Origin: Caballeronia sp. SEWSISQ10-4 2
Lineage (GTDB): Bacteria; Pseudomonadota; Gammaproteobacteria; Burkholderiales; Burkholderiaceae
Assembly (NCBI RefSeq): GCF_030464885.1
Contig: NZ_JALPRJ010000012.1
Location: 1-64,000 of the forward strand
Length of the DNA: 64,000 nt
Direction: 5' to 3'
In this document: in pieces, positions 15,853 to 28,629 of the stretch
Layout of the letters: each line of letters starts with the position of its first letter
Position numbering within the stretch: position 1 is the first letter of the stretch
Translations under genes and position numbers: made by a program
Notes under the pieces: model-generated
The model's input: the letters and a program-made list of their open reading frames with translations, nothing else
What the model was told of the DNA's origin: nothing
The model's database searches: none

Positions 15853-16938
15853 TCAGAAGTAATGCTGCAAGCCGATCCGCAACGAGAGCTGATGATCATT
15901 CGACGAAGGCGACAGCGAAGGCAAGTCTGCCAGCGCACCGCCATTCGTCTTCTGGAACGTGACTTCGGCATAAGCCAATGTCCGCTTGGACAGTTGGTAC
16001 AAATTTGCGAGGCCCACGGTGCTGTATCCCTTGCCCGCAAGCTCGGTGTGGAAGCCACCCAAACTCACGGTGTTGGCGATGCTCGTCTGATAATCCACGC
16101 CGAGTTCTTCGGTCAGCGCAGTCTCCGTATCCTGCCGTGTCTGCAGATGCACCTGATCGATCAGGCCGTGAATGCGCCAGCGATCGCCAAGCTTGTAGGT
16201 TCCCGCCACGCCGATGATCCGCGTATTGTCCGCCACGAAAGACGCTCCGCCGGCCAGGTTCTGCCCCATGAAGCTCGTGTAGCCCAGCTGCGTATTGAAA
16301 GCATACGTGCGATGGTTCGTGTCGCTATAGACGGCGCCGAGCTGCAGCGGTCCCGTCGCATAGAGCACCGCCGCGCCGATGTACCGGCCGAGCGCGGTGT
16401 TGGCATCGCTGAACGAATACATGGTGCGAATGCCGAAGCCGCGATAACCCGGGCTCGCATACTTGATCGAATTGCTGATGGGCGTCACCGCCGCATTGTC
16501 GATATTGCCCGGGTGATACATGAAGTTGTTGAACTGCACCGCGCCGTTCGCGCTCGGCGTAAAAACTTCGTTTGTCAAATCCCACTGCCGGCCGAGCGTC
16601 AGCGTGCCCCACCGCTGGCTGGCAAGACCCACATAAGCCATCCGGCTGAACTGATAACCCGATATCGCAAAGCGGCCGTTGTTCGAAAAGTAGCCGTTCT
16701 CCAGCTTGAAGATGGCGCTCAAGCCACCGGCAAGATCTTCCGAGCCGACGAAGCCGAACTTGTCCGGCACCGCGATCGGTCCCATGACGACCGCCTTGCC
16801 GCCATTCTGATTGCTGACATAGCCCATCCCTTCGTCGATACTGCCGTACATGGCGAGGCTACTGGTCTGCGCTTCGCATCGATCGATATAGCCGATGCAA
16901 ATAGCCATCGCAGCAATGAGACTAATATTCTTTAGCAT
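15853..16938 (-). CDS. Gram-negative general porin (Burkholderia type)
   Basis: A 361-residue outer-membrane trimeric porin. It has a signal peptide (MLKNISLIAAMAICIGYIDRCEA), the SLAMYGSIDEGMGYV first strand, the GFVGSEDLAGGLSAIFKLENGY and LGRQWDL signatures, and a terminal ...LRIGLQHYF strand ending in Phe as BAM substrates do. The start at 16938 was chosen for its signal peptide; a longer frame to 16983 adds a non-signal extension. The signal peptide carries an unusual Cys-Glu-Ala near cleavage. It follows the isomerase gene by 160 nt on the same strand, so it may import the substrate of that cluster. Confidence 0.9.
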   Translation of the reverse strand: MLKNISLIAAMAICIGYIDRCEAQTSSLAMYGSIDEGMGYVSNQNGGKAVVMGPIAVPDKFGFVGSEDLAGGLSAIFKLENGYFSNNGRFAISGYQFSRMAYVGLASQRWGTLTLGRQWDLTNEVFTPSANGAVQFNNFMYHPGNIDNAAVTPISNSIKYASPGYRGFGIRTMYSFSDANTALGRYIGAAVLYATGPLQLGAVYSDTNHRTYAFNTQLGYTSFMGQNLAGGASFVADNTRIIGVAGTYKLGDRWRIHGLIDQVHLQTRQDTETALTEELGVDYQTSIANTVSLGGFHTELAGKGYSTVGLANLYQLSKRTLAYAEVTFQKTNGGALADLPSLSPSSNDHQLSLRIGLQHYF

Positions 16939-17098
16939 TACTAATCCTGTGGAATATATCAAAAATCGGTCAGTTTTAAACACCGGCCAATGGCGACCTG
17001 ATCAAGGTTGAATGTCTGATGCCAAACTGGATTGGATCGGCCGTCGCCAAGCGCACGTGGAAGCTCAACGTCCTGCGCAATGCGGTTACGTCAATGGT

Positions 17099-17815
17099 TC
17101 ATGCGTCGAAAGCGCCTTCCAGCAGGCTTCCATAGTGCTTCGGCTTTTGCGCGACGTTCAGCGTTTTCAGGCAGTACCAGAGCAATGCGGCATTGCTGGC
17201 AATCACGGGCTTGTTCACGAGCGCTTCAAGCTTTTCTATGACATCGGCGAGCCGGATTCCCGCGCAACTGATCACGAGCGCATCGAACGGTCCTTTGAGC
17301 GTGGCTGCCAGTTCAAGCCACCGTTGTGGATGCAGCATCCCCTGATCGAACGGCGTATTCTGCGGCAAGCTTTTTTCTGAAACGACACGCAGACCCTGTT
17401 TCTCGAAGAACGCAATCTCCGCTTCCACCACTTCACGCCGATAGGGCGTCATCAGCGCGATGCTACTGGCATTCGCCGCCGCCAACGCCGCCATGACCGC
17501 CTGAATTGTCGTGACCGACCGGATGCCGGTCGCAGCCTGCACGCGGCGGTTGATCTCATCCGGTCCGGCAACGACGCCCGCCGCGGTGCAGTTGAGCGCA
17601 ATCAGATGCACGCGGGCATCGGCGAGCAGCATGGCGTGCGATCCGAGATCGTCGATCAACGACTTGTCCGACGCGATCGACGTATCGCGAAACGGCAGCC
17701 GCGTAGTAAGAAACTGCACGCCGCCGCGCGCCATCATCTGCACTTCATGGTCGCAAAGACCACCCGATGGATACAGATGCCCAATGCGCACCACTTCGCC
17801 CAATCCACAACTCAT
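17099..17815 (-). CDS. Maleate isomerase / Asp-Glu racemase superfamily enzyme
   Basis: A 238-residue cofactor-independent enzyme of the Asp/Glu racemase superfamily, closest in pattern to maleate cis-trans isomerase and arylmalonate decarboxylase. Both catalytic-cysteine positions are filled: Cys76 in LNCTAAG and Cys184 in ISCAGIR. Decarboxylases of the family keep only the second, so an isomerase or racemase is more likely. The GHLYPSGG start is also family-like. It lies 74 nt after the MFS transporter gene on the same strand, and would fit conversion of maleate to fumarate at the end of a ring-degradation route (inference). Confidence 0.85.
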   Translation of the reverse strand: MSCGLGEVVRIGHLYPSGGLCDHEVQMMARGGVQFLTTRLPFRDTSIASDKSLIDDLGSHAMLLADARVHLIALNCTAAGVVAGPDEINRRVQAATGIRSVTTIQAVMAALAAANASSIALMTPYRREVVEAEIAFFEKQGLRVVSEKSLPQNTPFDQGMLHPQRWLELAATLKGPFDALVISCAGIRLADVIEKLEALVNKPVIASNAALLWYCLKTLNVAQKPKHYGSLLEGAFDA

Positions 17816-17889
17816 GGAACGTCCTGTGATGACAGTTTGACTTCGAAGGCACGCATGGCGCAGCGCGCGGTACGGTCAGCGAAGACGCT

Positions 17890-19239
17890 TCAGCTTTTCA
17901 GCGATACTGCGCCGGGCGTCATCGAAGGGCTGCTCCAGTTCGGGTTGCGCGTGAGCGCAATGGCCGCGGCTGCCACCAGCGCCGCGCCGGCGAACGCGTA
18001 GAAGTTCCACTGGACATCGGCGCCTTGGGAAGCCAGGTACGCACCGACCATCGGACCGCTCATTGCGCCGAATCGGCCGACGCCCACTGCCCAGCCCGTG
18101 GCGCTCGCCCGGGCATGCGCACGGTAATAGTTGGCGATAAAACCAAGCTGCACCATCGCCACACCAATGCTGCCGAAACCCGCGAGCGCCACCAGCACGT
18201 AGTTCATGATGAGACCGCTCTTGATCGCGAGACCGGAGATGGCGATTGCACCCACCACGTAGCCGCCCATGATGGTCTTGCGCGTGCCGAGAAAGTCGCT
18301 GATACGCCCGATCAGAATGCCGCCCAGCGCTGACGAGAGCATGAACACCGCGAGGAACGAGAGGCTCGGACCAAGCTCGTAGCCCATCTTGCGCATGAGT
18401 TGCGGCAGCCACGTGCCGAGGCCGTAGATCACCATGACAGCGGCGACCTGCGCCACCCACAAGCTGACGGTGGCGAGCGCGTTCTGCTTCGAGAACACTT
18501 CGCGGAACACGGCGCCAACCGTCGGTTTGGGCAGCGGGTCCTTGACGCGCTGCTCCAGTTCGACGGCCGCAATGCCGAGCTTCCTGGCAAGCGTCGCCGC
18601 TTTCGCATGACGGCCGCGTGCAATCAGGAAGTCGAGCGATTCGGGCAGCATATAAAACAGGAACGGCACCGCTAGCAGCGGCGCGGCGCCGAGCGCCACA
18701 ACGAAGCGCCAGCCATGCGAGCCGAGAAACGCCATGCCCATCACCGCCGAGAGCAACGCGCCGAACGAATAGCCCGAGTACATCAGCGCGAAGTTGAGGT
18801 TGCGCTTTTCAGGCGGCGAAAACTCGATCGTCAATGCCGCCGCCGCCGAAATCACGCCGCCAAGGCCCAGTCCGCCGATAAACCGTGCCACCGAAAACAC
18901 GAAGGGTGTGGGCGCGCAGCCAGCGCCGATCATCGAGAGCGAGAAGAGCGTCACGCAGCCAATCAGCAACAACTTGCGCCCGACCAGATCACTGACCACG
19001 CTGATGAAATACGACCCGATGAGCGTCCCGAAAAGCGCGGCGCTGCCCATCGCGCCGATCTCGATGGGCGTGAGTTTCCAGTTGGCGTCGGCGAGAAGGG
19101 CGGGAACGATCGTGCCCATCACACCAATGTCGTAGCCTTCGGCCACGATGGTGAGAAAGCACAGGATGAGCACCAGATACGTAGTTCGCGCCGGGGGATG
19201 GAACGCGTGGGACGCCGCAGTATCGGATAAAGCCGCCAT
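17890..19239 (-). CDS. MFS transporter, aromatic acid:H+ symporter type
   Basis: A 449-residue twelve-helix major facilitator. The first helix carries EGYDIGVMGTIVPALL, matching the DG(F/Y)D-type motif of aromatic acid:H+ symporters such as PcaK/BenK, and the cytoplasmic loop has SDLVGRKLLLIG. It should import an aromatic or heteroaromatic acid with protons. It is the first gene of a minus-strand unit with the isomerase and perhaps the porin. Its upstream region carries the GAATGGCATTC palindrome (19387-19397) shared with the Rieske operon promoter, so it is probably repressed by the TetR protein at 19503. Confidence 0.92.
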   Translation of the reverse strand: MAALSDTAASHAFHPPARTTYLVLILCFLTIVAEGYDIGVMGTIVPALLADANWKLTPIEIGAMGSAALFGTLIGSYFISVVSDLVGRKLLLIGCVTLFSLSMIGAGCAPTPFVFSVARFIGGLGLGGVISAAAALTIEFSPPEKRNLNFALMYSGYSFGALLSAVMGMAFLGSHGWRFVVALGAAPLLAVPFLFYMLPESLDFLIARGRHAKAATLARKLGIAAVELEQRVKDPLPKPTVGAVFREVFSKQNALATVSLWVAQVAAVMVIYGLGTWLPQLMRKMGYELGPSLSFLAVFMLSSALGGILIGRISDFLGTRKTIMGGYVVGAIAISGLAIKSGLIMNYVLVALAGFGSIGVAMVQLGFIANYYRAHARASATGWAVGVGRFGAMSGPMVGAYLASQGADVQWNFYAFAGAALVAAAAIALTRNPNWSSPSMTPGAVSLKS

Positions 19240-19386
19240 GAAGGCACCTCAATATTTAGCATAGCAGATGATGTGGACCAGGATCTGCAGGCGCGACCGT
19301 TCCGCACGCCCAGACCGGACGCGCCGGATTTCGGGCCGTCGCGAGGTCAGGAACATCGGGTCGATCCGCGTGATGATCTAAATACA

Positions 19387-19415
19387 GAATGGCATTCTTT
19401 ATTCGAGCATGTCAA
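19387..19415 (-). promoter_or_regulatory. TetR operator and promoter of the transporter unit
   Basis: GAATGGCATTC (19387-19397), an 11-bp palindrome, lies in the sequence CAGAATGGCATTCTTTATT. The same 19-nt block with two changes occurs at 20281-20299. On the minus strand TTGACA (19415-19410) precedes it, so the palindrome covers the -10/start region of the transcript reading into the MFS gene. Confidence 0.75.
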
Positions 19416-19502
19416 AAGATTTTCAAAAATCCGTTCTGTTTCTTTTTGACGACGCTGAACATGCAACGCGTTCAATGTGCACGACCGCATTGCAGCAAAA
19501 AA

Positions 19503-20105
19503 TCAGCGCGTGCGCGGCTCGGTGTCGGGTTCAGTACCGCCCAGCAGGAGATCCGCCATCATGCTGGCGATCTGGTCGATGTCGCGCACGTCGCCAATCC
19601 GGTGATTGATCACGAAGCCGTCGAACGCCATCCAGATCACGTGCGCGAGCATGTCGCCCTGCACCACCGATAACCGCTCCGGCGGCAACGAGTCGCGCAG
19701 CAATGCGCCGATAAAGGCATCGACGGTATCGATCAGCTTGAACGGCTTGCCCTGGTTCGGCGGCGCGCTTGCGAGTGCGTCGATCAGCGCGTTGGCGAAC
19801 GTATGGTCGGTGGACGGAATGTCGGACCAGAGGCCGACCAGAATGCGCTCGATGCGCGCCCTCGGCGTATCCAGGCTCATCACCTCGTCGCGCAGCAGGT
19901 CGAGCTGCTTCGTCAGCCAGGGCTGGTAAATCTCATAGAGGATGACGAGCTTCGAGTCGAAGTAGACGTACAGATTCGCGACGGTTGTTTTGGCGAGACG
20001 AGCGATCTCGGTCATGGTCGTCGCCGAATAGCCCTTGCTGCTGAACGCCGAAAATGCGGCCTTCAGGATGGCCGCCCGCACTTCTGGTTTCTTGACCTGC
20101 GGCAC
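19503..20105 (-). CDS. TetR-family repressor of the Rieske/transporter regulon
   Basis: A 200-residue TetR regulator with FSSKGYSATTMTEIARLAKTTVANLYVYFDSK as the helix-turn-helix region. It lies between the MFS unit and the Rieske oxygenase operon and is divergent from the latter. The shared palindrome GAATG(G/C)CATTC at 19387 and 20282, both overlapping promoters, makes it the natural candidate to repress both units until the pathway substrate or an intermediate is present. The inducer is unknown. Confidence 0.92.
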   Translation of the reverse strand: MPQVKKPEVRAAILKAAFSAFSSKGYSATTMTEIARLAKTTVANLYVYFDSKLVILYEIYQPWLTKQLDLLRDEVMSLDTPRARIERILVGLWSDIPSTDHTFANALIDALASAPPNQGKPFKLIDTVDAFIGALLRDSLPPERLSVVQGDMLAHVIWMAFDGFVINHRIGDVRDIDQIASMMADLLLGGTEPDTEPRTR

Positions 20106-20256
20106 TGGGTCTCCTCAAACAGGATGATCTGCGGGTATAGCGGGTATCACCAGACACCGGCGTCCCTACTTTTTCGCCCGCCAAGCCATGCGCGGGTGCT
20201 CGCCATTCTAGCAATCCCCCCGTTTCGATCGACAAAGAACGCGTGACGCATAACGC

Positions 20257-20292
20257 TTGACAAGCCATTTTTTTGAAAACAGAATGCCATTC
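20257..20292 (+). promoter_or_regulatory. Promoter and TetR operator of the Rieske operon
   Basis: TTGACA at 20257-20262, then 17 nt, then CAGAAT at 20280-20285 as -10. The palindrome GAATGCCATTC (20282-20292) overlaps the -10 box, so a bound repressor would block polymerase. GAGGAC ahead of the ATG at 20333 is the ribosome site. Confidence 0.75.
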
Positions 20293-20332
20293 GTTATTGA
20301 CGAACATCTGCTTCCCTTTCGAGGACGATCGC

Positions 20333-21640
20333 ATGACTAACATTCCCGCCCCTGAAGGCACGCTCACTGGACGCTACGCCGAACTGGGCTCTGGACTGAT
20401 TCCTGTCGAGCCGTACATCTCGGCCGACTACTTTGCACGCGAGAAGGCGCACATCTTCAAGAAGACGTGGCTGCAGGTCGGCCGCGTGGAAGAAATTCCG
20501 GAAGCCGGCGACTATTTCGTCAAGACGCTGGCCGCGTGCGATACGGAAGTCATCGTCGTACGAAACAGGCAGGGCCAGATTCGCGCGATGCACAACGTCT
20601 GCTCGCATCGGCTCAATCAGATTGCTTACGAGAAGACCGGCCACACGCGCAAATTCTTCTGCAAGTTTCACGGCTGGGCGTACGACCTCGACGGCAACCT
20701 CACCGGCGTGCCCGACGAAAAATGCTTCTTCGGCCTTTCGCGCGCGGACTATGCGCTCACGCGCGTGTCGTGCGACGTGTGGCAGGGATTCATCTTCGTC
20801 AACATGGATCCGAACCCCGCGCTCTCGCTGGACGAATTCATGAAGCCGATGTACGGCGACATCGAAGGCTATCCGTTCGACAAGATGACGGTTGGCTTTG
20901 CGTGGGAAACGGTCGTCGATTGCAACTGGAAACTCGCGCTCGACGCGTTCCAGGAGGCGTATCACGTGGCCTACGTGCACGGCAATTCGATTGCCGATGC
21001 GATCGACAAGAGCGAAGGCGGCAGCATGCCGCCGCTCGACGCGCTGTGCGGTGACTTTCATCGACGGCTCTCGCTCGCGGGCAACCAGAAGTCCGTCTAT
21101 GGCAACCCGAAGGCGGTCACCTCGGGCGGCGCGGCGGCGAGCGAAGCCTTGTCCGATGCGAGCGCGAAGCGGCCCATTGCATCAGCGGCGTTGCGCGCGG
21201 GCATTGGCAGCGCGCGCCATGCGTTCCCGCTCGACGCGCTGCCCAAGGGCGTGAACTGGACCAAGAGCCCGAACTGGCTCTTCGACATCAATGTCGTCTT
21301 CCCGGACTTCTATCTCTCGCTACGCCCGAATTATTGCCAGGCGTACAACTTCCGCCCGATCGCGCACAACAAGACGCTGCTCGAAGCGCGCGTCTATTAC
21401 CCGGAGATGACGACGCCCGGCGGCCGCTTCTTCCTTGAATACATGAAGGTCGCGTTGCGCGATGTGCTGCTCGAGGATCTGAGCACGCTCGAGCGCACGC
21501 AGCGCGCCGCCGAAACCGGCGTGAAGAAGTTCATGGTGCTGCAGGATAACGAACTGCTCGTGCGCCATAGCTATCACGTGATCGAGCGCCTGCTGGCCGA
21601 AGCCGAGACGAAGGAACAACCCGTGGCGGCGGCCGACTGA
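20333..21640 (+). CDS. Rieske non-heme iron oxygenase, alpha subunit
   Basis: A 435-residue terminal oxygenase subunit. The Rieske [2Fe-2S] ligands are Cys90, His92, Cys110 and His113 (NVCSHR ... FCKFHGW). The catalytic Fe ligands lie in DAFQEAYHVAYVH (His211, His216), with the bridging Asp204 position kept. It should insert O2-derived oxygen into an aromatic or heterocyclic substrate, drawing electrons from the ferredoxin and reductase encoded in the same operon. The ATG at 20333 follows GAGGAC; a longer frame from 20273 would run through the operator. No classical beta subunit gene is present, but an NTF2-like protein (24071) has the same fold. Confidence 0.95.
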   Translation: MTNIPAPEGTLTGRYAELGSGLIPVEPYISADYFAREKAHIFKKTWLQVGRVEEIPEAGDYFVKTLAACDTEVIVVRNRQGQIRAMHNVCSHRLNQIAYEKTGHTRKFFCKFHGWAYDLDGNLTGVPDEKCFFGLSRADYALTRVSCDVWQGFIFVNMDPNPALSLDEFMKPMYGDIEGYPFDKMTVGFAWETVVDCNWKLALDAFQEAYHVAYVHGNSIADAIDKSEGGSMPPLDALCGDFHRRLSLAGNQKSVYGNPKAVTSGGAAASEALSDASAKRPIASAALRAGIGSARHAFPLDALPKGVNWTKSPNWLFDINVVFPDFYLSLRPNYCQAYNFRPIAHNKTLLEARVYYPEMTTPGGRFFLEYMKVALRDVLLEDLSTLERTQRAAETGVKKFMVLQDNELLVRHSYHVIERLLAEAETKEQPVAAAD

Positions 21641-21651
21641 GGAGCATGAAC

Positions 21652-22050
21652 ATGGAAGAAAAAATCATCGTAATGGCCGGGCGCAGTCAGATTTCAAGCT
21701 CGACGCCCGCAACTTTGCCCGACGCGTTTGCCAACCTCCAGCCGTTCGTCGAACGCTGGGCGCTGGCAACGGAAACCGAGCGCAACACGCAACGTCATGC
21801 AGTGGGCATGGACGCGATTCTCGCGTTCAAGGACGCCATGCTGCCGCGCGTGGATGCCGTGATGCAGTGGCTCGACACGTTTCCGCTCAACGCGTTGCCC
21901 GATGCAGCGAAGCCGCTGATGTACCTGCTGCTCTCGTTCGCGGAAGTCGCGCCCGCGGTTGAGTTCTACAAGCAGCCGGCGGTCATCGATGGATACGATC
22001 CGCGGCGCTTCGTGGCCGACGAAACGTTCACGATGCGGCCCGCCATCTGA
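21652..22050 (+). CDS. Small protein of unknown function in the Rieske operon
   Basis: A 132-residue protein I do not recognise. It is mostly helical, with no signal peptide, no conserved Cys pair and no metal motif that I can see. GGAG lies 7 nt ahead of the ATG at 21652, which is preferred over the ATG at 21646 because that one sits against the site. It comes 11 nt after the oxygenase alpha gene, so a role linked to the oxygenase is plausible. Confidence 0.75.
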   Translation: MEEKIIVMAGRSQISSSTPATLPDAFANLQPFVERWALATETERNTQRHAVGMDAILAFKDAMLPRVDAVMQWLDTFPLNALPDAAKPLMYLLLSFAEVAPAVEFYKQPAVIDGYDPRRFVADETFTMRPAI

Positions 22051-22081
22051 CGTTGTGCAGCATTCATACAGGAACAGCACC

Positions 22082-22498
22082 ATGCCCAAGTGCCGCATTT
22101 TTGGTATCGACGACGGTCTCAAGCAGGTCGTCGCCAACGGCCTTTATATGAAGACCTATATCGGCGAATCGATCAGCGTTGCGGTGATCAAGTTCGTAGA
22201 AGAGGCAGGACGCGAACTGCCGGCGAAGGCTCACGACCACGGCGAGGAAGCGTCGTTGCAAGTGAGCGGCGGCTGCTCGATCTTCGAAGTGCGGCCTGGC
22301 GAAGCCGATGTCGAGCACGTCATGAACGCGGGCAGCGCGGTGATCATTCCCGCCGGCCTCAGCCACTACGGCGTGAACCGCTTCGAACCGGCTGGCATCA
22401 GCATGCGACTGAACGTGGTCACGCCGCCGCGCGCCGAGTATGGCAGCGGCGACGAAACGCCTTACTATCCGCTCGCGGACCGGGAAGGCGCGCGATGA
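22082..22498 (+). CDS. Cupin-domain protein with intact metal-binding motifs
   Basis: A 138-residue single cupin. Motif 1 shows HDHGEEASLQVSGG with two His and a Glu; motif 2, GSAVIIPAGLSHYGVN, matches the G(x)5PxG(x)2H(x)3N consensus exactly. A bound metal is therefore expected. Such small cupins serve as isomerases, lyases or dioxygenases; the reaction here is not known. Its stop overlaps the next cupin gene by 4 nt (ATGA). Confidence 0.88.
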   Translation: MPKCRIFGIDDGLKQVVANGLYMKTYIGESISVAVIKFVEEAGRELPAKAHDHGEEASLQVSGGCSIFEVRPGEADVEHVMNAGSAVIIPAGLSHYGVNRFEPAGISMRLNVVTPPRAEYGSGDETPYYPLADREGAR

Positions 22499-22827
22499 CC
22501 ACCATCAACACGATGCCCTGCCAGCACGTCTCAAGCGACGATCGCGTGGACGGCGCCGCACTCTCCGCCGGCATCCAGACGCTGCGTCAAGACGAAATCA
22601 TCGATATCGAAGCGGGCACGCTCGGCGAAGAAGTCGGCGCGATTCTCTCGGGCCGCATCGACGTTGTTGCCGCGGGCGAACACTACGTTCTCTGCGCAGG
22701 CGAAGCCATCGTGATTCCCGCCGGCGAAGCGCGGCGCTTCACGTGCCTCACCGAGCGCGGCGAGTTGTATCGCGTCACCGTTCGTGCGTACGACAGCGTG
22801 CACGGCAACGTGCCGGTGCGAGCATGA
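22495..22827 (+). CDS. Degenerate cupin-domain protein
   Basis: A 110-residue cupin fold (GAILSGRIDVVAAGEHYVLCAGEAIVIPAGEARRF). Neither the HxH pair of motif 1 nor the His of motif 2 is present, so metal-dependent catalysis is unlikely. It may be a partner or regulator of the metal-binding cupin encoded just before it, with which it overlaps by 4 nt. The following reductase gene also overlaps by 4 nt. Confidence 0.85.
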   Translation: MTTINTMPCQHVSSDDRVDGAALSAGIQTLRQDEIIDIEAGTLGEEVGAILSGRIDVVAAGEHYVLCAGEAIVIPAGEARRFTCLTERGELYRVTVRAYDSVHGNVPVRA

Positions 22828-24068
22828 ACACGCATTCGCACGTGGCGATCGTGGGCGCGGGTCACGCGGGCGGACGCGTGGCGCAACATCTGCGCGCGCT
22901 CGGCCATAGCGGCCGCGTGACGCTGATCGGCGCCGAAGCGCATGCGCCTTACGAGCGGCCGGCGTTATCGAAGGAAATGCTGCTTGGCACGACAGCCGGC
23001 GAAAACCTCGTGCTCGCGCCGTCGGCATTCTGGATGGACAATGCGCTCGCGGGCATCGGCATCGAACGGGTGCATGCAACGGTTGAATCGCTCGACGTCG
23101 ATGCACGCCGCGTGCGCCTTCATGACGGATGTTATATCGGCTTCGATCAGCTCGTGGTGGCAACAGGCGCGGCGGCGCGTCGCCTGCCGGTGCCTGGCTG
23201 CGACCTGCCGGGCGTACACGTATTGCGCACGCTCGATGACTGCATCGCGCTCAAGGCCGCGTTTCCGGCGTGCCGCGAACTCGCGATCATCGGCGGCGGC
23301 GTGATCGGCATGGAAGTCGCGTCGAGTGCAACGAAGCTCGGCATGCGCGTAACTGTGCTCGAAGCGGGCGGCGCGATCATGAACCGTTGCCTGCCGCCGC
23401 TCGTGTCCGCGTGGCTCGAAGCGCAGCACGCGGAACACGGCGTCGCGGTAAAGAAGAACGTGCGCGTGGAGAAGATCGTGAAGACGGGCGAGCGGCTGCA
23501 GATCGTCGCCAGGTCCGGCGATGGACGCCTGCTGACTGATGCCGATTGCGTGCTGATGGCAACTGGCGCCGACTGCCATCCCGCTTTCCTGCACGGCACG
23601 GGCCTGGCGGATACACAAGGCGTGCACGTCGATGCCCATTGCCGCAGCCCGCTCGCCCCGTGGCTTTATGCAGCCGGCGACGTCGCCTGCCTGCGCGACG
23701 CTGAATCCGGCGTCGCATTGCGCCAGGAAACGTGGCGCAATGCAGAGAGCCAGGCGCGCGCCGTCGCGGAAATGTTGCTTGGCCGCAGCGAGCCGTATCG
23801 CGAAACGCCGTGGATGTGGACCGATCAGCACGGGCACTCCATTCAGGTGACCGGCACGCCCGACGCCGCGCACGAATGGATCGTGCGCGGCAGCCTGGAA
23901 GCGGCGAGCGCAACAGTCGTGGGTCTGCGCGACGGCTGCGTGCATGCGGGCGTGACGATCAACCAGAGCCGCGACCGGCGTCACATCGAAGCGCTCGTGA
24001 CAGGCCGCCAAGCGGTGGACACGCTGCGTATCGCCGATACACGGCATGCACTGAAAACGTTCCTCTGA
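22824..24068 (+). CDS. FAD-dependent ferredoxin reductase of the Rieske system
   Basis: A 414-residue flavoprotein of the oxygenase-coupled ferredoxin reductase (BphA4/AlkT-like) group. It has an N-terminal FAD-binding VAIVGAGHAGGRVA motif, YERPALSKEML, an NAD-binding IIGGGVIGMEVASSA motif, and the second FAD contact LYAAGDVA. It passes electrons from NADH to the Rieske ferredoxin at 26486. ATGA overlap with the preceding cupin gene indicates coupled translation. Confidence 0.93.
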   Translation: MNTHSHVAIVGAGHAGGRVAQHLRALGHSGRVTLIGAEAHAPYERPALSKEMLLGTTAGENLVLAPSAFWMDNALAGIGIERVHATVESLDVDARRVRLHDGCYIGFDQLVVATGAAARRLPVPGCDLPGVHVLRTLDDCIALKAAFPACRELAIIGGGVIGMEVASSATKLGMRVTVLEAGGAIMNRCLPPLVSAWLEAQHAEHGVAVKKNVRVEKIVKTGERLQIVARSGDGRLLTDADCVLMATGADCHPAFLHGTGLADTQGVHVDAHCRSPLAPWLYAAGDVACLRDAESGVALRQETWRNAESQARAVAEMLLGRSEPYRETPWMWTDQHGHSIQVTGTPDAAHEWIVRGSLEAASATVVGLRDGCVHAGVTINQSRDRRHIEALVTGRQAVDTLRIADTRHALKTFL

Positions 24069-24070
24069 TC

Positions 24071-24652
24071 ATGACGACTACACCGGCTTTGCTTTCACTC
24101 GAAGAACGCGTGGCGCGGCTGGAAGCCATCGACGCCATTCGCCGCCTGAAAGCCCGCTACGCCGCGCTCGCCGATGCCAAGTACACAAACGACTACACGC
24201 GTCAGCCCGACGCCGTCATGCACGACATCGCGCGGCAACAGGCCGAGTGCTTCACGCACGACGCGGTCTGGGCCGGCGGCTCGGGCTTCGGCAACGATCT
24301 GGCAGGACGCGAAGCGCTGCACGACTGGTTCCGTCGTTCGCCTTGGCGCTTCGCCATGCATTACTACATGAGCGAATCGATCGATGTCGACGTTCGCGCG
24401 GGCACGGCGCACGCAACCTGGCGGCTCTGGCAACTGGCATTGCGCGACGACGACGCTCACGCCGTTCTCCTCGGCGCGATCACGGAGGAGAAATACGCAG
24501 TCGATGGCGCGGGCCACTGGCTCTTGAGCGAGATGCGCTTCGTGCAACTGAAGATGATGGAGCCGAGTGCGATTCCCTTGCCCATCGCTAATGATTTTGG
24601 CGCGCTCGCGGCCATGCGAACGCGCGGTACAACCCTCACGGAACGAACATGA
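24071..24652 (+). CDS. NTF2-like / SnoaL-like protein, possible beta-type subunit
   Basis: A 193-residue NTF2-fold protein (LEERVARLEAIDAIRRLKARYAALAD, then a WxGGSGFGND region and HYYMSESIDVDV). This fold includes SnoaL-like dehydratases and isomerases and also the beta subunits of ring-hydroxylating dioxygenases. Since the operon lacks a standard beta subunit, it is a candidate for that place, though an independent dehydratase or isomerase is equally possible. It starts 2 nt after the reductase gene and overlaps the PyrK-like gene by 4 nt. Confidence 0.85.
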   Translation: MTTTPALLSLEERVARLEAIDAIRRLKARYAALADAKYTNDYTRQPDAVMHDIARQQAECFTHDAVWAGGSGFGNDLAGREALHDWFRRSPWRFAMHYYMSESIDVDVRAGTAHATWRLWQLALRDDDAHAVLLGAITEEKYAVDGAGHWLLSEMRFVQLKMMEPSAIPLPIANDFGALAAMRTRGTTLTERT

Positions 24653-25560
24653 ACGATTCCCCCACGGCGAGCAAAGTCATTGCGTTTGCGCCGGCCGGCC
24701 ACGAAACGCACTACGCGTGCCACGTGTGCCACGACGAGGCCTTGCCGATTGCCGAGAACATCTGCACCGTGCGCTCGAACGACTGGGTCAACCCCGAATA
24801 CAAGCATCTGGTGCTGAGCGCGCCCGCCACGGCGCTGACAGCTGTTGCCGGCCAGTTCTTCCATCTCGCGTGCCCGCCTTCTACCGATGAAGCCGCGTAC
24901 CTGCGCCGCCCAATGAGCATCTATCGCGTAGAAGCGGACGATGAACGCATCGAGTTCCTCTACAAGGTGCAGGGCGTGGGCACGCGCGGTCTCGCGCGTC
25001 TGGCTCCGCGCGACACGCTCGACGCGCTCGGCCCGCTCGGACAGGGCTTCAGGTTGCCGGCCGTCGCGCCGGGCGAACGCGCGCACGTGCTGCTGCTCGC
25101 ACGCGGCGTGGGTCTCGCGACCATGGCGCCGCTCGCGCAGGAAGCCATCCGCAGCGGCGCGCGCGTGACCGCGATCCTGAGCGCGCGCAGCGCGTCGCTC
25201 GTGATGTCGGTGGATTATCTGCGCGAAACGGGGGCGGATGTTTTGGTCGTCGCCGACGACGAACAAACCAGCGACGTCGTCCAGATCGAACGCATGATCC
25301 GCCGCGTTCACGCCGGGCAGGCAATCACGTTCGCCACCACGTGCGGGTCGAACCGCCTGCTCTCGACACTGCAGCACCTCACCGCCGAGTTCGGCATTCC
25401 CGGCGAGATCGCGCTCGAGCAGCACATGGGCTGCGCGATCGGCGCCTGCTACGCGTGCGTGCGTCCGTTCAGAAAACACAGCGGCTCGGATGAACTCACC
25501 TACCGGCGCGTGTGCTGGGACGGTCCCGTCTTCGATCTTCAGGAAACGACATCATGGTAG
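24649..25560 (+). CDS. PyrK-like FAD/[2Fe-2S] electron-transfer protein
   Basis: A 303-residue protein of the dihydroorotate dehydrogenase electron-transfer family. It has an FAD-binding RRPMSIYR motif (86-93), an NAD-binding half, and a C-terminal [2Fe-2S] cluster with Cys262, 267, 270 and 289. It should shuttle electrons between NAD and the FMN of the PyrD-like partner encoded next, whose gene overlaps it by 7 nt. It is longer than ordinary PyrK. An N-terminal extension contains Cys24, Cys27 and Cys39 (YACHVCHDE), a possible extra metal site. The usual glycine-rich GGG turn reads ARGVG. Confidence 0.92.
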   Translation: MNDSPTASKVIAFAPAGHETHYACHVCHDEALPIAENICTVRSNDWVNPEYKHLVLSAPATALTAVAGQFFHLACPPSTDEAAYLRRPMSIYRVEADDERIEFLYKVQGVGTRGLARLAPRDTLDALGPLGQGFRLPAVAPGERAHVLLLARGVGLATMAPLAQEAIRSGARVTAILSARSASLVMSVDYLRETGADVLVVADDEQTSDVVQIERMIRRVHAGQAITFATTCGSNRLLSTLQHLTAEFGIPGEIALEQHMGCAIGACYACVRPFRKHSGSDELTYRRVCWDGPVFDLQETTSW

Positions 25561-26489
25561 ACCTCAGCGTCAACATCGGCTCGCTTGCGCTTGCGAATCC
25601 GGTCATGCCCGCGTCGGGCACGTTTGCCGAAGGCACGGCGCAGGTCTTCGACCTCAACTGCCTAGGTGCGATCGTGACGAAGACGATCACGCACGACATC
25701 CGCGAAGGCGTGCCGCCGCCGCGCGTGGCCGAGTTCCGCGACGCCACGCTTTTCTCCATCGGCATTCCCAGCAAGGGCAGCGACTACTACATCAGCGAGA
25801 CTGTGCCCTTTTATCGACGATACGCACCGCCGCTCGTGGCGAGCATTTCGGCCAATAGCATCGAGGAGTTCGGCGAACTTGCCGCGAAGATCTCGGTGCC
25901 GGGCGTGAGAGCGATCGAGGCGAACGTCTCGTGCCCCAATCTCAAGAAGGACGGGCGCGCGTTCGGCATGGACCCGGAAGCCACATACCAGGTCGTGAAA
26001 GCGATGAAAGCCGTCACCAGCGTCCCCATCTGGCCGAAGATGACGCCCAACGCGGGCAACGTGGTCGAAGTGGCGCGCGCGGCGGAAGAAGCCGGCGCGG
26101 ACGCGCTGGTCGTGAGCAACGCCATCCTCGCGATGGCAATCGACGTCGAAACTTTCCGGCCGCGTCTGGCGAACGTCATGGGCGGACTGACCGGATCTGC
26201 GACACGCCCCATCATGCTTCGGATTGCATATCAATGCGTGCAGGCCGTATCGATTCCGGTGATTGGTTGCGGTGGAATCGGCAGCGCGTCAGATGCGCTC
26301 GAATTTCTACTGGCCGGATGCAGCGCCGTGCAAGTCGGCACCGCGAACTTCGTCTCGCCGACCACCATGCCGCGCCTGATCGACGACCTCATGAAATATT
26401 GCGAGCGGCATGGCATCACGCGCATTGCCGACATCATCGGCGCGGTGCGCATGCACGAACTCAACACGCTTCAACAGGCGGCGCTATGA
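25554..26489 (+). CDS. PyrD-like (class 1B dihydroorotate dehydrogenase family) protein
   Basis: A 311-residue FMN TIM-barrel protein of DHODH class 1. The catalytic Cys127 sits in NVSCPN, and FMN motifs such as NPVMPASGTF, CGGIGSASDALEFLLAG and VQVGTANF are intact. Compared with the lactococcal enzyme, the Lys (VTK43) and Asn residues around Cys are kept, but the substrate-binding Asn of the LN-x-(I/M)-G motif is Phe (LFSIGIPSKG). It is therefore unlikely to be a housekeeping pyrimidine gene. Within a Rieske operon it more likely oxidises or reduces a ring intermediate, possibly taking the place of a diol dehydrogenase (inference). Confidence 0.93.
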   Translation: MVDLSVNIGSLALANPVMPASGTFAEGTAQVFDLNCLGAIVTKTITHDIREGVPPPRVAEFRDATLFSIGIPSKGSDYYISETVPFYRRYAPPLVASISANSIEEFGELAAKISVPGVRAIEANVSCPNLKKDGRAFGMDPEATYQVVKAMKAVTSVPIWPKMTPNAGNVVEVARAAEEAGADALVVSNAILAMAIDVETFRPRLANVMGGLTGSATRPIMLRIAYQCVQAVSIPVIGCGGIGSASDALEFLLAGCSAVQVGTANFVSPTTMPRLIDDLMKYCERHGITRIADIIGAVRMHELNTLQQAAL

Positions 26490-26854
26490 ACACTATCGTG
26501 ATCAGGAATGCATCGGCCATGACGGACTTTTCTCTCGTGGATGGCTGGTACGAGATCGGCGCGATCACCGATATCTTCGCGGAACGCGACTGTCGCGGCG
26601 TGGAGCTCGCAGGCGAGAAGATCGGCCTCTTTCACGTCGATGACGAAGTGCTCGCACTCGACGACATTTGCACGCATGGCGCGGCGCTCCTGAGCGACGG
26701 CGACATGGAGGACGGCGAAGTGGAATGCCCGCTGCACGCAGGCCTCGTGGATGTCCGCACAGGCCGTGCGCTGTCCGCGCCCGTCACGCGCGACACGCGC
26801 CGTCACGACACGAAGATCGTGGACGACCGGCTTTTCGTACGGCTGCAAGCATGA
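26486..26854 (+). CDS. Rieske-type ferredoxin
   Basis: A 122-residue Rieske ferredoxin with ligands Cys62, His64, Cys81 and His84 (DDICTHG ... ECPLHAG). It carries single electrons from the FAD reductase (22824) to the oxygenase alpha subunit (20333). The ATG at 26486 overlaps the preceding stop by 4 nt; an internal Met12 would also give a typical ferredoxin length of about 111 residues. The gene is separated from the oxygenase by seven others, an unusual order. Confidence 0.93.
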   Translation: MNTIVIRNASAMTDFSLVDGWYEIGAITDIFAERDCRGVELAGEKIGLFHVDDEVLALDDICTHGAALLSDGDMEDGEVECPLHAGLVDVRTGRALSAPVTRDTRRHDTKIVDDRLFVRLQA

Positions 26855-27885
26855 TGCAGACGCCCAACACAGCCGCGAAACGCGCGCGGATCGCGGTGAT
26901 CGGCACGGGCGGCACATTCGCCATGCACGGGCGGCATCGCTTCGACTGGATCGGATATGCCGACAGCGGCGTGATTCATCCTATCGACGATCTGCTTGCC
27001 ACGCTCGGGGAACTCGCGCCCGATCTCGACCTCGTGCCGATTCCGTTTCGCAGTCTCGGGAGTGTGTCGATTGGACCCGCCGACTGGCTCGAGCTCTCGG
27101 CGCTGATCCGGCGCACGGCGGCGGTCGATCCTTCGCTGACGGGTTTCGTCGTCACGCATGGCACGGCGACGCTCGAAGAAACGGCGTGGTTCCTCGACCT
27201 GACGCTCGCGCTCGATCAGCCGGTCGTCGTGACGGGCGCACAGCGTCCGGCCAACACCGATGGCAGCGATGCCAGCGGCAACCTGCGCGCGGCGCTCGCG
27301 ATTGCGGCGTCACCTGCGTCGCGCGGCGCGGGCGTGCTGGTGACGCTCGGCGGGCTCTTCTTCGCCGCGCGCGACGTGACGAAGGCCGCGAGCTTCGAGC
27401 TCGGCGCGTTCGAAGCGCCGCCGTTCGGCCCGCTCGGCCGTGTGGATGCGGACGCGAGCGTGGTCTGGCGGCGCCGCATGCCCGAACGCGCGCCTCGCTG
27501 CGACCTGCCGCAGGACATGACGACACTGCCGCGCGTCGATATTGCGATGTCCTATGCGGGTGCGGACGGCGTCGCCATCGATGCGTTCGTGGCCGCCGGC
27601 GCGCGCGGCATCGTTTCGGCGGGTCTTGCGCCGGGACGGCCGGCGTCGAAGGAAACGAGCGCGCTCGTGCGCGCGGCGCAGGCGGGCGTAGTCGTCGTGC
27701 AGGCGACGCGCGCGCCGCGTGGCACCGTGCCCGTGCAGCGCTTCCTCGCCGCCGACGGCCTCCTGGCGGGCGGCGATCTCGCGCCGCCCAAGCTGCGCAT
27801 TGCGCTGATGCTCGCGATCGCTGCGGACGACGCGAGCGGCGGTATCGACTTGCCGCGTCTTCAGGCGCACCTGCTCGCGCTCTAA
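26851..27885 (+). CDS. Asparaginase-family protein with altered substrate site
   Basis: A 344-residue protein of the asparaginase/glutaminase family. The nucleophile-type Thr22 (GTGGTFA), Thr105 (HGT) and Lys178 (ARDVTK) are all present. The Asp that follows Thr in the usual HGTDT motif, which holds the amino group of the substrate, is Ala106 (VTHGTATLEET). The substrate carboxylate loop (normally DS-x-x-M) is also changed (RSLGSVSIG). An amidase or imidase acting on a non-amino-acid substrate is a reasonable inference. Overlaps the ferredoxin gene by 4 nt. Confidence 0.88.
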   Translation: MMQTPNTAAKRARIAVIGTGGTFAMHGRHRFDWIGYADSGVIHPIDDLLATLGELAPDLDLVPIPFRSLGSVSIGPADWLELSALIRRTAAVDPSLTGFVVTHGTATLEETAWFLDLTLALDQPVVVTGAQRPANTDGSDASGNLRAALAIAASPASRGAGVLVTLGGLFFAARDVTKAASFELGAFEAPPFGPLGRVDADASVVWRRRMPERAPRCDLPQDMTTLPRVDIAMSYAGADGVAIDAFVAAGARGIVSAGLAPGRPASKETSALVRAAQAGVVVVQATRAPRGTVPVQRFLAADGLLAGGDLAPPKLRIALMLAIAADDASGGIDLPRLQAHLLAL

Positions 27886-27930
27886 TGCGACGCGCGGCGC
27901 TTTTCCCTCTCAGCCATCGACCCGATCATC

Positions 27931-28629
27931 ATGCAATTTTCCTATCTCGTCACCTTCACGCATCCCGACCCGGACGCGCGCATCAGCGCGCGCGATCTGG
28001 AGACGATGACCACACGCATCGATGCCACGCCGAATCTTCGCCGCGCGCGCCTCTACACGCCGCAGCACGCCGACGACTACTACACGAACGACGGTCCTTC
28101 GCCCATCTTCGCGCTGCAACTCGACTTCGATACCCTCGCCGCGCTCGAGGCGTCCATTGCCGCCGATGGTCACTTGCAAAGCATCGCGCACCGCGATCTT
28201 CCGAGCCTCGCGGCGTGCGCCATCGAACAGCAGGTGATGGCGCGCCGGCCATTCCCGGTGCTCGACCCGGCGCCGCGCGTGCCCGATGGCGCGCTGCCCT
28301 GCCAGTTCCTGGTCCACTATCCGGGCCGTGCGGAAAATCTCGACGAATGGCTCGCCTATTACCTCGCGCATCATCCGCAAATCATGAAGTTCTTCGACGG
28401 CGTGCGCGAAATCGAGATCTTCACCCGCGTGGACTGGATCGACGCGATGCCGTGGTCACGAGTTCACTATATGCAGCGCAACAAGCTCATGTTCGATAGC
28501 GCCGAAGCCATAACCGCCGCGATGAATTCGCCCGTGCGTCATCAGATGCGCGCCGATTTCGAGCGCTTTCCGCCGTTTGAAGGCAGCAATATCCATCATC
28601 CAATGTCGGCGCGGACAATCGTGAGGTAA
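27931..28629 (+). CDS. Two-domain EthD-like (dimeric alpha-beta barrel) protein
   Basis: A 232-residue cytoplasmic protein that reads as two ferredoxin-like alpha-beta barrel halves fused in tandem. The C-terminal half has the EthD-like pattern MQRNKLMFDSAEAI...SPVRHQMRADFERFPPFEG. EthD-type proteins accompany oxygenase operons but their role is often unclear; some act as isomerases or lyases on polar ring-fission products. It begins 45 nt after the asparaginase-like gene and ends the operon. Confidence 0.8.
   Translation: MQFSYLVTFTHPDPDARISARDLETMTTRIDATPNLRRARLYTPQHADDYYTNDGPSPIFALQLDFDTLAALEASIAADGHLQSIAHRDLPSLAACAIEQQVMARRPFPVLDPAPRVPDGALPCQFLVHYPGRAENLDEWLAYYLAHHPQIMKFFDGVREIEIFTRVDWIDAMPWSRVHYMQRNKLMFDSAEAITAAMNSPVRHQMRADFERFPPFEGSNIHHPMSARTIVR

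Follow-up and report, generated by a model that had tools for sequence, protein, structure and literature searches.

A putative TetR-controlled catabolic regulon in Caballeronia joining a Rieske oxygenase to altered PyrD-like and asparaginase-like enzymes, with catechol as a likely product

A gene cluster on a 64,000-nucleotide stretch of Caballeronia sp. SEWSISQ10-4 2 (contig NZ_JALPRJ010000012.1, positions 1 to 64,000; hereafter, the window) combines a Rieske oxygenase with a pair of proteins resembling PyrD and PyrK of class 1B dihydroorotate dehydrogenase (PyrDK) and with an asparaginase-like enzyme. Our analysis suggests that this cluster, which is shared by soil bacteria related to Paraburkholderia, probably serves to degrade an aromatic acid containing nitrogen, with catechol and ammonia as products. 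It delineates an apparent catabolic regulon, uncharacterised so far, which has a clear operator and, in catechol, a testable product.

A conserved eight-gene core and its operator

Besides the window, 16 loci carry the cluster: a second copy elsewhere in the window's genome (L006), genome contigs L007-L015, four loci from the same family (L062, L063, L064, and L066), and two plasmids, from Paroceanicella (L046) and Azospirillum (L055). A core of eight genes, encoding the Rieske oxygenase alpha subunit (alpha), the small protein orf2, two cupins, a flavin adenine dinucleotide (FAD) ferredoxin reductase, a SnoaL-like protein, a Rieske ferredoxin, and the asparaginase-like enzyme, was kept in all 16. 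In L046, the second cupin was recognised by position and annotation only and the reductase is annotated as two open reading frames; adjoining stretches (L061 and L065) hold the ferredoxin and asparaginase genes of L015 and L064. Gene order within the core was unchanged in 14 of the 16, the FAD reductase gene being displaced in L046 and L055. Since the core recurs in 16 other loci, and in the same order in 14, the arrangement is not due to chance. The EthD-like gene that ends the operon occurred in 13 of the 16 (it is missing from L006, L055, and L066), and in L015 and L064 it has been relocated, together with PyrDK, to a divergent group.

The cluster is rare. Alpha was found in eight of 200 genomes of the family (E 1e-110), and the same eight carried a full-length asparaginase-like gene at 62% identity or more; further asparaginase-like matches among the 200 were a broken copy (G173) and relatives of 46-47% identity (G044 and G078). 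One of the eight, the C. novacaledonica genome G030 (L012), has a single alpha. PyrD of the type found in these Rieske clusters (R-type, at least 72% identity) was present in seven of the eight alpha-bearing genomes and in no others, while 21 further genomes of the family carried orotate-type PyrD only. The order-wide sample (399 genomes) and the phylum-wide sample (398) yielded alpha in the window's genome only (E 1e-110 and 1e-90, respectively), and among 72,556 plasmid records only two had an alpha of more than 60% identity. The initial annotation had suggested searching genomes for the co-occurrence of alpha with PyrD/PyrK-like and asparaginase-like genes; alpha was accompanied by the asparaginase-like gene in eight of eight genomes and by R-type PyrD in seven of eight. 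That annotation had also held that genes conserved independently of one another would refute its reading, and we found such independence for PyrDK and the EthD-like gene only. Broken ferredoxin, asparaginase-like, and EthD-like genes were also seen in a same-genus genome that measures only 2.8 Mb, on a small contig (L068; G173:C63).

Divergent from the operon lie genes for a TetR-type regulator, a major facilitator superfamily (MFS) transporter, a maleate-isomerase-superfamily enzyme, and a porin (Pfam TetR_N, MFS_1, Amdase, and Porin_4). In relatives' alpha promoters, a palindrome, GAATGNCATTC, followed by NTTATT, spans the -10 region. With up to three mismatches allowed, a scan of the window returned the GAATGNCATTC pattern at two places only, one ahead of each group (Table 1), where 0.00 were expected from 100 shuffles. 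Across the whole 9.44-Mb genome, six matches with up to one mismatch fell at five places. The window accounts for two of these places and the second copy on contig C99 for another two, one ahead of its alpha and one ahead of its porin-MFS group; the fifth is near a kup-like gene. A backward control pattern gave 0 matches in the same genome. The last site, on contig C132 before the kup-like potassium transporter (named by eye), is probably a chance match. As the pattern was derived from alpha promoters, both alpha-side matches arise by construction, and the independent results are the MFS-side matches and the rarity of the pattern. When up to two mismatches were allowed, L007-L014 (8/8), L062, L063, and L006 showed both sites and L066 a single one; L015 and L064 show only a degenerate form, seen by eye, and the palindromes of L046 and L055 differ from GAATGNCATTC. 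The shared palindrome before both groups, and before both groups of the second copy, indicates that the main operon, the divergent group, and the second copy form one predicted regulon, to which TetR would bind. The importer, the maleate-isomerase-like gene, and the porin, placed with the operon by the initial annotation, belong there by virtue of the operator in both promoters.

The second copy (G000:C99:75500-95400) has diverged (alpha 81%, PyrD 71% identity). It has its own operator sites, lacks the EthD-like gene, and is followed by a CoxG-like gene (named by eye) and genes for a three-subunit molybdenum hydroxylase.

Altered pockets in PyrD and the asparaginase-like enzyme

PyrDK is an accessory module. 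It was present in 14 of the 16 other loci; L066 is without it, with no PyrD match under 1e-60 in the genome concerned (G184), and in the Azospirillum plasmid (L055:16984-17274) a PyrK tail fragment is fused to an internal PyrD fragment followed by a stop, a natural loss of PyrDK within an otherwise retained cluster. Because L066 keeps the core in the absence of PyrDK and L055 keeps it with a mere remnant of the pair, PyrDK is not an obligatory ring-redox step, and the earlier suggestion that it may take that role in place of a diol dehydrogenase is not supported.

Where present, the pair has kept the hallmarks of its family. The window PyrD matches PF01180 at 215 bits and passes the NCBIfam dihydroorotate dehydrogenase model NF005574 (331 bits, cut-off 269), and the catalytic loop reads NVSCPN or NISCPN in 15 of 15 cluster PyrDs. 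Its PyrK partner exceeds the cut-off of PF10418 and falls just under that of FAD_binding_6 (19.1 vs 21.1 bits), with the 2Fe-2S cysteines at positions 262, 267, 270, and 289. However, the ring-binding Asn is replaced by Phe and the ring-binding Thr by Ala in all 15 Rieske-cluster PyrDs (F67 and A190 in the window), whereas Asn and Thr stand at those positions in the 5ue9 reference and in all 16 orotate-type proteins that were aligned, out of 29. We take these residues to correspond to the orotate-ring ligands Asn67 and Thr194, with numbering and roles from the L. lactis and human enzymes and the contacted atoms placed roughly. Both groups share the Lys, the IGI loop, a later Asn, and the NxSCPN loop including its Cys. 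The chemistry and carboxylate binding thus look kept and ring recognition changed, and the substrate of PyrDK is probably a different orotate-like acid and not orotate itself. The 15 PyrDs of the Rieske clusters grouped together (99/98) beside the orotate-type PyrDs in a maximum-likelihood tree.

The next relatives of these PyrDs (52-60% identity) lie in orotate-type operons, which encode PyrK, PyrD, and a carbamoylase-type hydrolase in six of six annotated plasmid loci and in 23 of 23 others (tblastn), with a dihydroorotase in three of the six, and which presumably break down orotate. Such PyrK-PyrD-carbamoylase-dihydroorotase operons were seen on Klebsiella, Pseudomonas, and other plasmids (L048, L050, and others); 57 Klebsiella plasmid records had a PyrD match.

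The asparaginase-like enzyme shows a comparable pattern. The catalytic Thr, Tyr, Thr, and Lys, which we take to be the Thr12-Tyr25 and Thr89-Lys162 sets of AnsB, are retained in all 16 aligned sequences (L066 stands outside this alignment). In the same 16, Ala replaces the Asp that follows the second Thr (A106 in the window), and Val or Thr replaces the Gln that follows the conserved Ser; these positions are presumably Asp90 and Gln59 of AnsB, which hold the alpha-amino group of asparagine. At the column equivalent to Glu283, presumably contributed in AnsB by the neighbouring subunit, the window protein has no Glu in either alignment, with a gap making the column unsure, and L006 has Glu one place earlier. 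Against the TIGR00520 type II family the protein scored 193 bits (cut-off 314). Judged by these residues, the subfamily probably does not act on asparagine, and we consider the enzyme likely to be a half-amidase; as a natural guess, its substrate would be an amino-free C4 diacid monoamide such as succinamate, maleamate, or oxaloacetamate. At the position of the ligand Asp, three of five more distant relatives have Ala and the others Asn or Gly; these proteins, which come from other, catabolic-looking islands (L067, L069, L070, L071, and L072), may perhaps belong to a wider non-asparagine family. The one from Arthrobacter (HGTN) has a molybdenum hydroxylase and a PuuE-like hydrolase (under the model's cut-off) as neighbours. 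For the maleate-isomerase-like enzyme, the best solved relative was maleate cis-trans isomerase 4fq7 (E 1e-10); the EutA and arylmalonate decarboxylase models matched under their NCBIfam cut-offs, and two Cys motifs are present.

These results bring to light a PyrD subfamily scoring above the cut-off of an NCBIfam dihydroorotate dehydrogenase model even though 15 of 15 members have lost two residues that presumably recognise orotate's ring. The Paroceanicella copies are annotated as 'dihydroorotate dehydrogenase' and 'asparaginase', and proteins of both subfamilies are probably misnamed in annotation. Both offer a way to read a change of substrate from sequence, and the cluster provides a test bed for the recruitment of old enzymes to new ring chemistry.

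Catechol as the likely product and the proposed pathway

Catechol-cleaving genes adjoin the core in four of the 16 loci, representing three lineages. The Azospirillum cluster (L055) abuts an intradiol dioxygenase gene (174 bits to its best model, under the cut-off), together with a muconate cycloisomerase over the cut-off, catC, and pca genes. In L066, the cluster abuts a catechol 1,2-dioxygenase (365 bits, cut-off 392), with a muconate cycloisomerase and PcaD both over their cut-offs. In genomes G101 and G133, a catechol 2,3-dioxygenase (438 bits, cut-off 320) is encoded inside the cluster, between the maleate-isomerase-like gene and pyrK. CatA scored only near 51 bits in these two genomes, and an earlier objection, that its absence refuted catechol, was dropped once the catechol 2,3-dioxygenase was found inside both clusters. 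Elsewhere, CatA over the cut-off occurred in five of the eight cluster genomes, G184 has the cluster-adjacent enzyme, and a catechol 2,3-dioxygenase (363 bits) is encoded in the window's genome outside the window; the search for catechol 2,3-dioxygenase covered six of the eight (G030 and G051 were left out). A catechol-cleaving candidate in all eight genomes is weak evidence by itself because CatA over the cut-off is found in 41 of 100 family members. The chance of three linked lineages was estimated at 6e-5 (two genes per 6.5 Mb, 13 independent loci, even spread), an estimate that is too favourable because catabolic genes cluster. No CatA-like or catechol 2,3-dioxygenase-like match, the two kinds of ring-cleavage enzyme searched for, was found beside seven orotate-type plasmid loci. 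Because catechol-cleaving genes stand beside the core in four loci, catechol is rather likely to be the product of the Rieske enzyme. The initial annotation had reported no ring-cleavage dioxygenase, which is correct for these two kinds in the window and incorrect for four of its relatives.

The Rieske alpha subunit has the CxH...CxxH motif, the catalytic domain, and its ferredoxin and reductase partners. At the position of the acid that we take to bridge the Rieske cluster and the mononuclear iron (an Asp, placed in the alignment from naphthalene dioxygenase), Glu was found in the window, in 15 aligned cluster loci (L066 lying outside the alignment), and in the more distant L056-L058, and Asp in L059. 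Glu also occurs in carnitine and betaine oxygenases. Pfam returned no ring-hydroxylating beta subunit among the ten operon proteins scanned, and orf2 or the SnoaL_4 protein could take its part. The model of orf2 (predicted local distance difference test, pLDDT, 74) is a predicted four-helix protein with no match in the PDB under E 0.001. An orf2-like protein is encoded directly behind alpha relatives (alpha 34-38%, orf2 28-39% identity) in four other genera, and is perhaps an unrecognised small subunit. These pairs, in Rhodococcus, Acinetobacter, Sphingomonas, and Variovorax (L056-L059), occur in varied settings.

Taken together, we tentatively propose a TetR-controlled regulon for the uptake (porin and MFS transporter) and aerobic breakdown of an N-heteroaromatic carboxylic acid, for which we infer the substrate, the products, and the order of the steps. 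In some clusters, a molybdenum hydroxylase would first make a lactam. Next, the Rieske oxygenase, working together with orf2, ferredoxin, and FAD reductase, would attack the benzo ring at the ring fusion, freeing the nitrogen as a primary amide and releasing catechol to the ortho or meta pathway. PyrDK with reduced nicotinamide adenine dinucleotide (NADH) would reduce the carboxylate-conjugated C=C of an orotate-like acid, before or after ring opening, and the asparaginase-like enzyme would hydrolyse the C4 half-amide to ammonia and a C4 diacid, the maleate-isomerase-like enzyme handling the unsaturated form. The substrate we favour is a benzo-fused lactam, such as 2-oxoquinoline-4-carboxylate or oxindole-acetate, a choice to which we give somewhat less than an even chance. 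The former would map on the COOH-C=CH-CO-NH edge of orotate, with the benzo ring on the remaining edge, and loss of the polar Asn and Thr in PyrD would give that ring room. Kynurenate fits less well, as by our own reasoning its ring would yield no primary amide. The complete combination, in which PyrDK is re-aimed at a benzo-fused look-alike of orotate, the Rieske enzyme excises catechol, and the altered asparaginase cleaves the half-amide, is rather doubtful as a whole. Breakdown of a nitrogen heterocycle to a C4 diacid, as first suggested, is plausible from the asparaginase residues and the molybdenum hydroxylases, the identity of the heterocycle being conjectural.

Support for a nitrogen heterocycle comes from the large subunit of the second-copy molybdenum hydroxylase, the best solved relative of which is quinoline 2-oxidoreductase (2e-135), and from a related hydroxylase set (46-50% identity) that adjoins the Paroceanicella plasmid cluster. 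Several observations weigh against the proposal. A CoxL chain scored nearly equally well (8e-133) for the same subunit, the best NCBIfam model of which is a glyceraldehyde dehydrogenase (530 bits, cut-off 790), so aldehyde oxidation by this hydroxylase is conceivable. The DNA examined at the other 12 loci and the 64-kb window gave no match of the CatA-like or catechol 2,3-dioxygenase-like kind. The two loci with linked intradiol genes, L066 and L055, are the very ones in which PyrDK is absent or damaged, a split suggesting that PyrDK may serve a different substrate or the molecule's other half. In Variovorax L059, the alpha-orf2 pair has a 2,5-dihydroxypyridine dioxygenase as a neighbour, and the range of this Rieske group therefore extends beyond benzo-fused rings. 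By our own reasoning, the leaving carbon must carry an additional oxygen if a fused ring is to give up catechol free of substituents; no enzyme is assigned to this, and the cupins, SnoaL-like, and EthD-like proteins stand outside the proposed steps.

Other readings of the cluster have to be weighed. That the substrate is a single-ring N heterocycle (a pyridine carboxylate, pyridone, or cyclic imide), hydroxylated by the Rieske enzyme, reduced by PyrDK, and hydrolysed to a diacid by the asparaginase-like enzyme, is a view close to that of the initial annotation. Citrazinate is 1-deaza-orotate and 4,6-dihydroxypicolinate is 3-deaza-orotate, and the PyrD and asparaginase-like residue changes fit this view equally well, as do the molybdenum hydroxylases beside two clusters, the Variovorax alpha relative, and the setting of the Arthrobacter HGTN protein. 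However, it leaves the catechol-cleavage genes beside four clusters unexplained, Pfam found no ring-opening amidohydrolase in the operon, and PyrDK is dispensable; we regard it as unlikely. A lower probability still attaches to a non-fused aryl compound with an ortho nitrogen or amide side chain (of the anthranilate, anilide, or aryl-amino-acid conjugate type), in which Rieske 1,2-dioxygenation would expel the side chain to give catechol and the asparaginase-like enzyme and PyrDK would process that side chain. The linked catechol genes are consistent with it, as are the window ferredoxin and reductase, which resemble AndAb and AndAa of anthranilate dioxygenase (under the cut-off), and the M20 amidohydrolases beside four clusters, but the molybdenum hydroxylases and an orotate-like PyrDK would be unexplained and the window alpha lies far below the cut-offs of the anthranilate models.

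We think it improbable that a non-nitrogenous aromatic acid is converted to catechol, with PyrDK working as an enoate reductase and the asparaginase-like enzyme hydrolysing an ester or lactone. The MFS transporter nearest aromatic-acid symporters, the Rieske enzyme, and the catechol linkage would agree with this, but retention of the asparaginase catalytic residues in 16 of 16 suggests amide hydrolysis, and the molybdenum hydroxylase is nearest quinoline 2-oxidoreductase among solved structures. Finally, it is highly improbable that PyrDK serves ordinary pyrimidine metabolism, whether biosynthesis or orotate catabolism, and stands here by chance: although PyrD passes the dihydroorotate dehydrogenase cut-off and its nearest relatives lie in orotate-type operons, both ring ligands are replaced in 15 of 15, the cluster PyrDs form one clade confined to Rieske-alpha genomes among the 200, no carbamoylase or dihydroorotase matched in any of the six R-type loci tested or among the window's Pfam matches, and the genome encodes a quinone-type PyrD (445 bits, cut-off 200) and PreA elsewhere. 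Orotate or pyrimidine catabolism was accordingly rejected on the changed PyrD residues and missing partner enzymes, and pyrimidines, named earlier as growth substrates to try, are unlikely given the changed PyrD pocket.

Gene layout and relation to known systems

The eleven packed genes reported by the initial annotation at 20333-28629 are all present (Table 1), with intergenic gaps of -7 to +45 bases and 4-base ATGA overlaps at five of ten junctions. Some of its gene names stood only in part. Of the 'two cupins', the second exceeds the Cupin_2 cut-off and has lost the metal histidines, while the first scores below it yet has both metal motifs (by eye). The 'aromatic-acid-type importer' is indeed nearest the aromatic acid/H+ symport model, but well below its cut-off. 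The 'EthD-like' protein had no Pfam match at E 0.01; its structure model is poor (pLDDT 58), too poor for reading function, and Foldseek listed ferredoxin-like alpha+beta barrels, including EthD-type ones, none under E 0.001. Four Paraburkholderia loci (L008:15958-19611, L009:14286-18050, L010, and L011) have as neighbours a porin, an additional EthD-like gene, and two M20 amidohydrolases in tandem; the amidohydrolases may feed in amino-acid conjugates.

Table 1. Features of the cluster and its divergent group in the window.
Feature	Position	Strand	Evidence and remarks
Porin	15853..16983	-	Porin_4 4e-33; divergent group behind second operator
Maleate isomerase/arylmalonate decarboxylase-superfamily enzyme	17099..17815	-	Amdase 3e-21; Cys motifs NCTAAG and SCAGIR by eye
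MFS importer nearest aromatic acid/H+ symport family	17890..19239	-	MFS_1; TIGR00895 268 bits, cut-off 418
Operator ACAGAATGGCATTCTTTATT ahead of MFS group	19384..19403	+	Exact match; 0.00 expected from shuffles
TetR-type regulator	19503..20105	-	TetR_N 6e-12
Main operon promoter and operator	20257..20298	+	TTGACA-17-CAGAAT by eye; ACAGAATGCCATTCGTTATT at 20279-20298
Rieske oxygenase alpha subunit	20333..21640	+	Ring_hydroxyl_A PF00848, Rieske PF00355
orf2, 134 amino acids, no family, directly behind alpha	21646..22050	+	Pfam
First cupin, single-domain, both metal motifs by eye	22082..22498	+	Cupin_2 below cut-off; alignment
Second cupin, metal histidines missing by eye	22495..22827	+	Cupin_2 over cut-off
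FAD ferredoxin reductase, HcaD/AndAa-like but under those models' cut-offs	22824..24068	+	Pyr_redox_2, Reductase_C
SnoaL_4 NTF2-like protein	24071..24652	+	PF13577 8e-13
PyrK-like FAD/2Fe-2S subunit	24649..25560	+	PF10418 DHODB_Fe-S_bind; NF000799 138 bits, cut-off 314
PyrD-like flavin mononucleotide (FMN) subunit, F67 and A190 for Asn and Thr	25554..26489	+	PF01180 DHO_dh; alignment
Rieske ferredoxin	26486..26854	+	PF00355
Asparaginase-like probable half-amidase, A106 for ligand-binding Asp	26851..27885	+	PF00710/PF17763 (N and C domains); alignment
EthD-like, probably alpha+beta barrel protein	27931..28629	+	No Pfam match; predicted structure

The initial annotation knew of no named pathway with this gene set, and among the open-access matches listed, most subscription papers lying outside them, no paper described it by title or start of abstract. 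None of the listed matches joined a dihydroorotate dehydrogenase with a Rieske or ring-hydroxylating enzyme, or a Rieske enzyme with a dihydroxypyridine and maleamate cluster, and no such cluster appeared there for the dipicolinate, isonicotinate/citrazinate, kynurenate, and auxin pathways.

A chemical parallel is riboflavin catabolism, in which the xanthine-oxidase-type LumJ and then the Rieske enzyme LumA-D turn a quinoxaline into its dione and then into a catechol, the benzo-fused quinoxaline dione being opened with a labile amide and the cupin LumY acting as a hydratase (PMC12746152). Like our proposal, this system has a hydroxylase followed by a Rieske dioxygenase on a benzo-fused ring, with a cupin in the pathway; unlike the window, it has an alpha/beta pair (LumC/LumD), and the passages considered mention no PyrDK or asparaginase, the comparison being one of descriptions. 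Auxin catabolism degrades an indole acid, by the iac route to catechol and by the iad route, which uses a Rieske enzyme, to anthranilate, IadDE acting as a monooxygenase (PMC12633357); here too, the passages considered mention no PyrDK or asparaginase. IadD (9o71) matches the window alpha only at residues 27-222. The LumJ/LumA-D and iac cases point the same way as the proposed release of catechol.

In gene content, the window resembles the Acinetobacter plasmid cluster L057, which shares alpha (36%), orf2 (39%), an NTF2-like protein, a Rieske ferredoxin, an amidase, and catechol genes, but in which a flavin monooxygenase of the styrene/indole type and an acetamidase/formamidase replace PyrDK and the asparaginase-like enzyme; from its annotation, we read it as an indole-type cluster. 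At the level of single enzymes, the window protein shares with the type II L-asparaginase AnsB the fold, the nucleophile Thr, the Tyr, and the Thr-Lys pair, and differs in the ligand Asp and the Gln after the conserved Ser as well as in its score against the family model. Similarly, the window PyrD has kept the FMN barrel, NxSCPN loop, and PyrK partner of class 1B dihydroorotate dehydrogenase while its two ring ligands are replaced. Finally, the orotate-type operons of Klebsiella, P. putida, and Variovorax plasmids resemble the window in carrying a PyrK-PyrD pair in a catabolic-looking operon, there with a carbamoylase and partly with dihydroorotase or orotate phosphoribosyltransferase (OPRT)-like genes. 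The window differs from them in two PyrD residues, without exception in the alignment, and in having the Rieske core in place of the carbamoylase and dihydroorotase.

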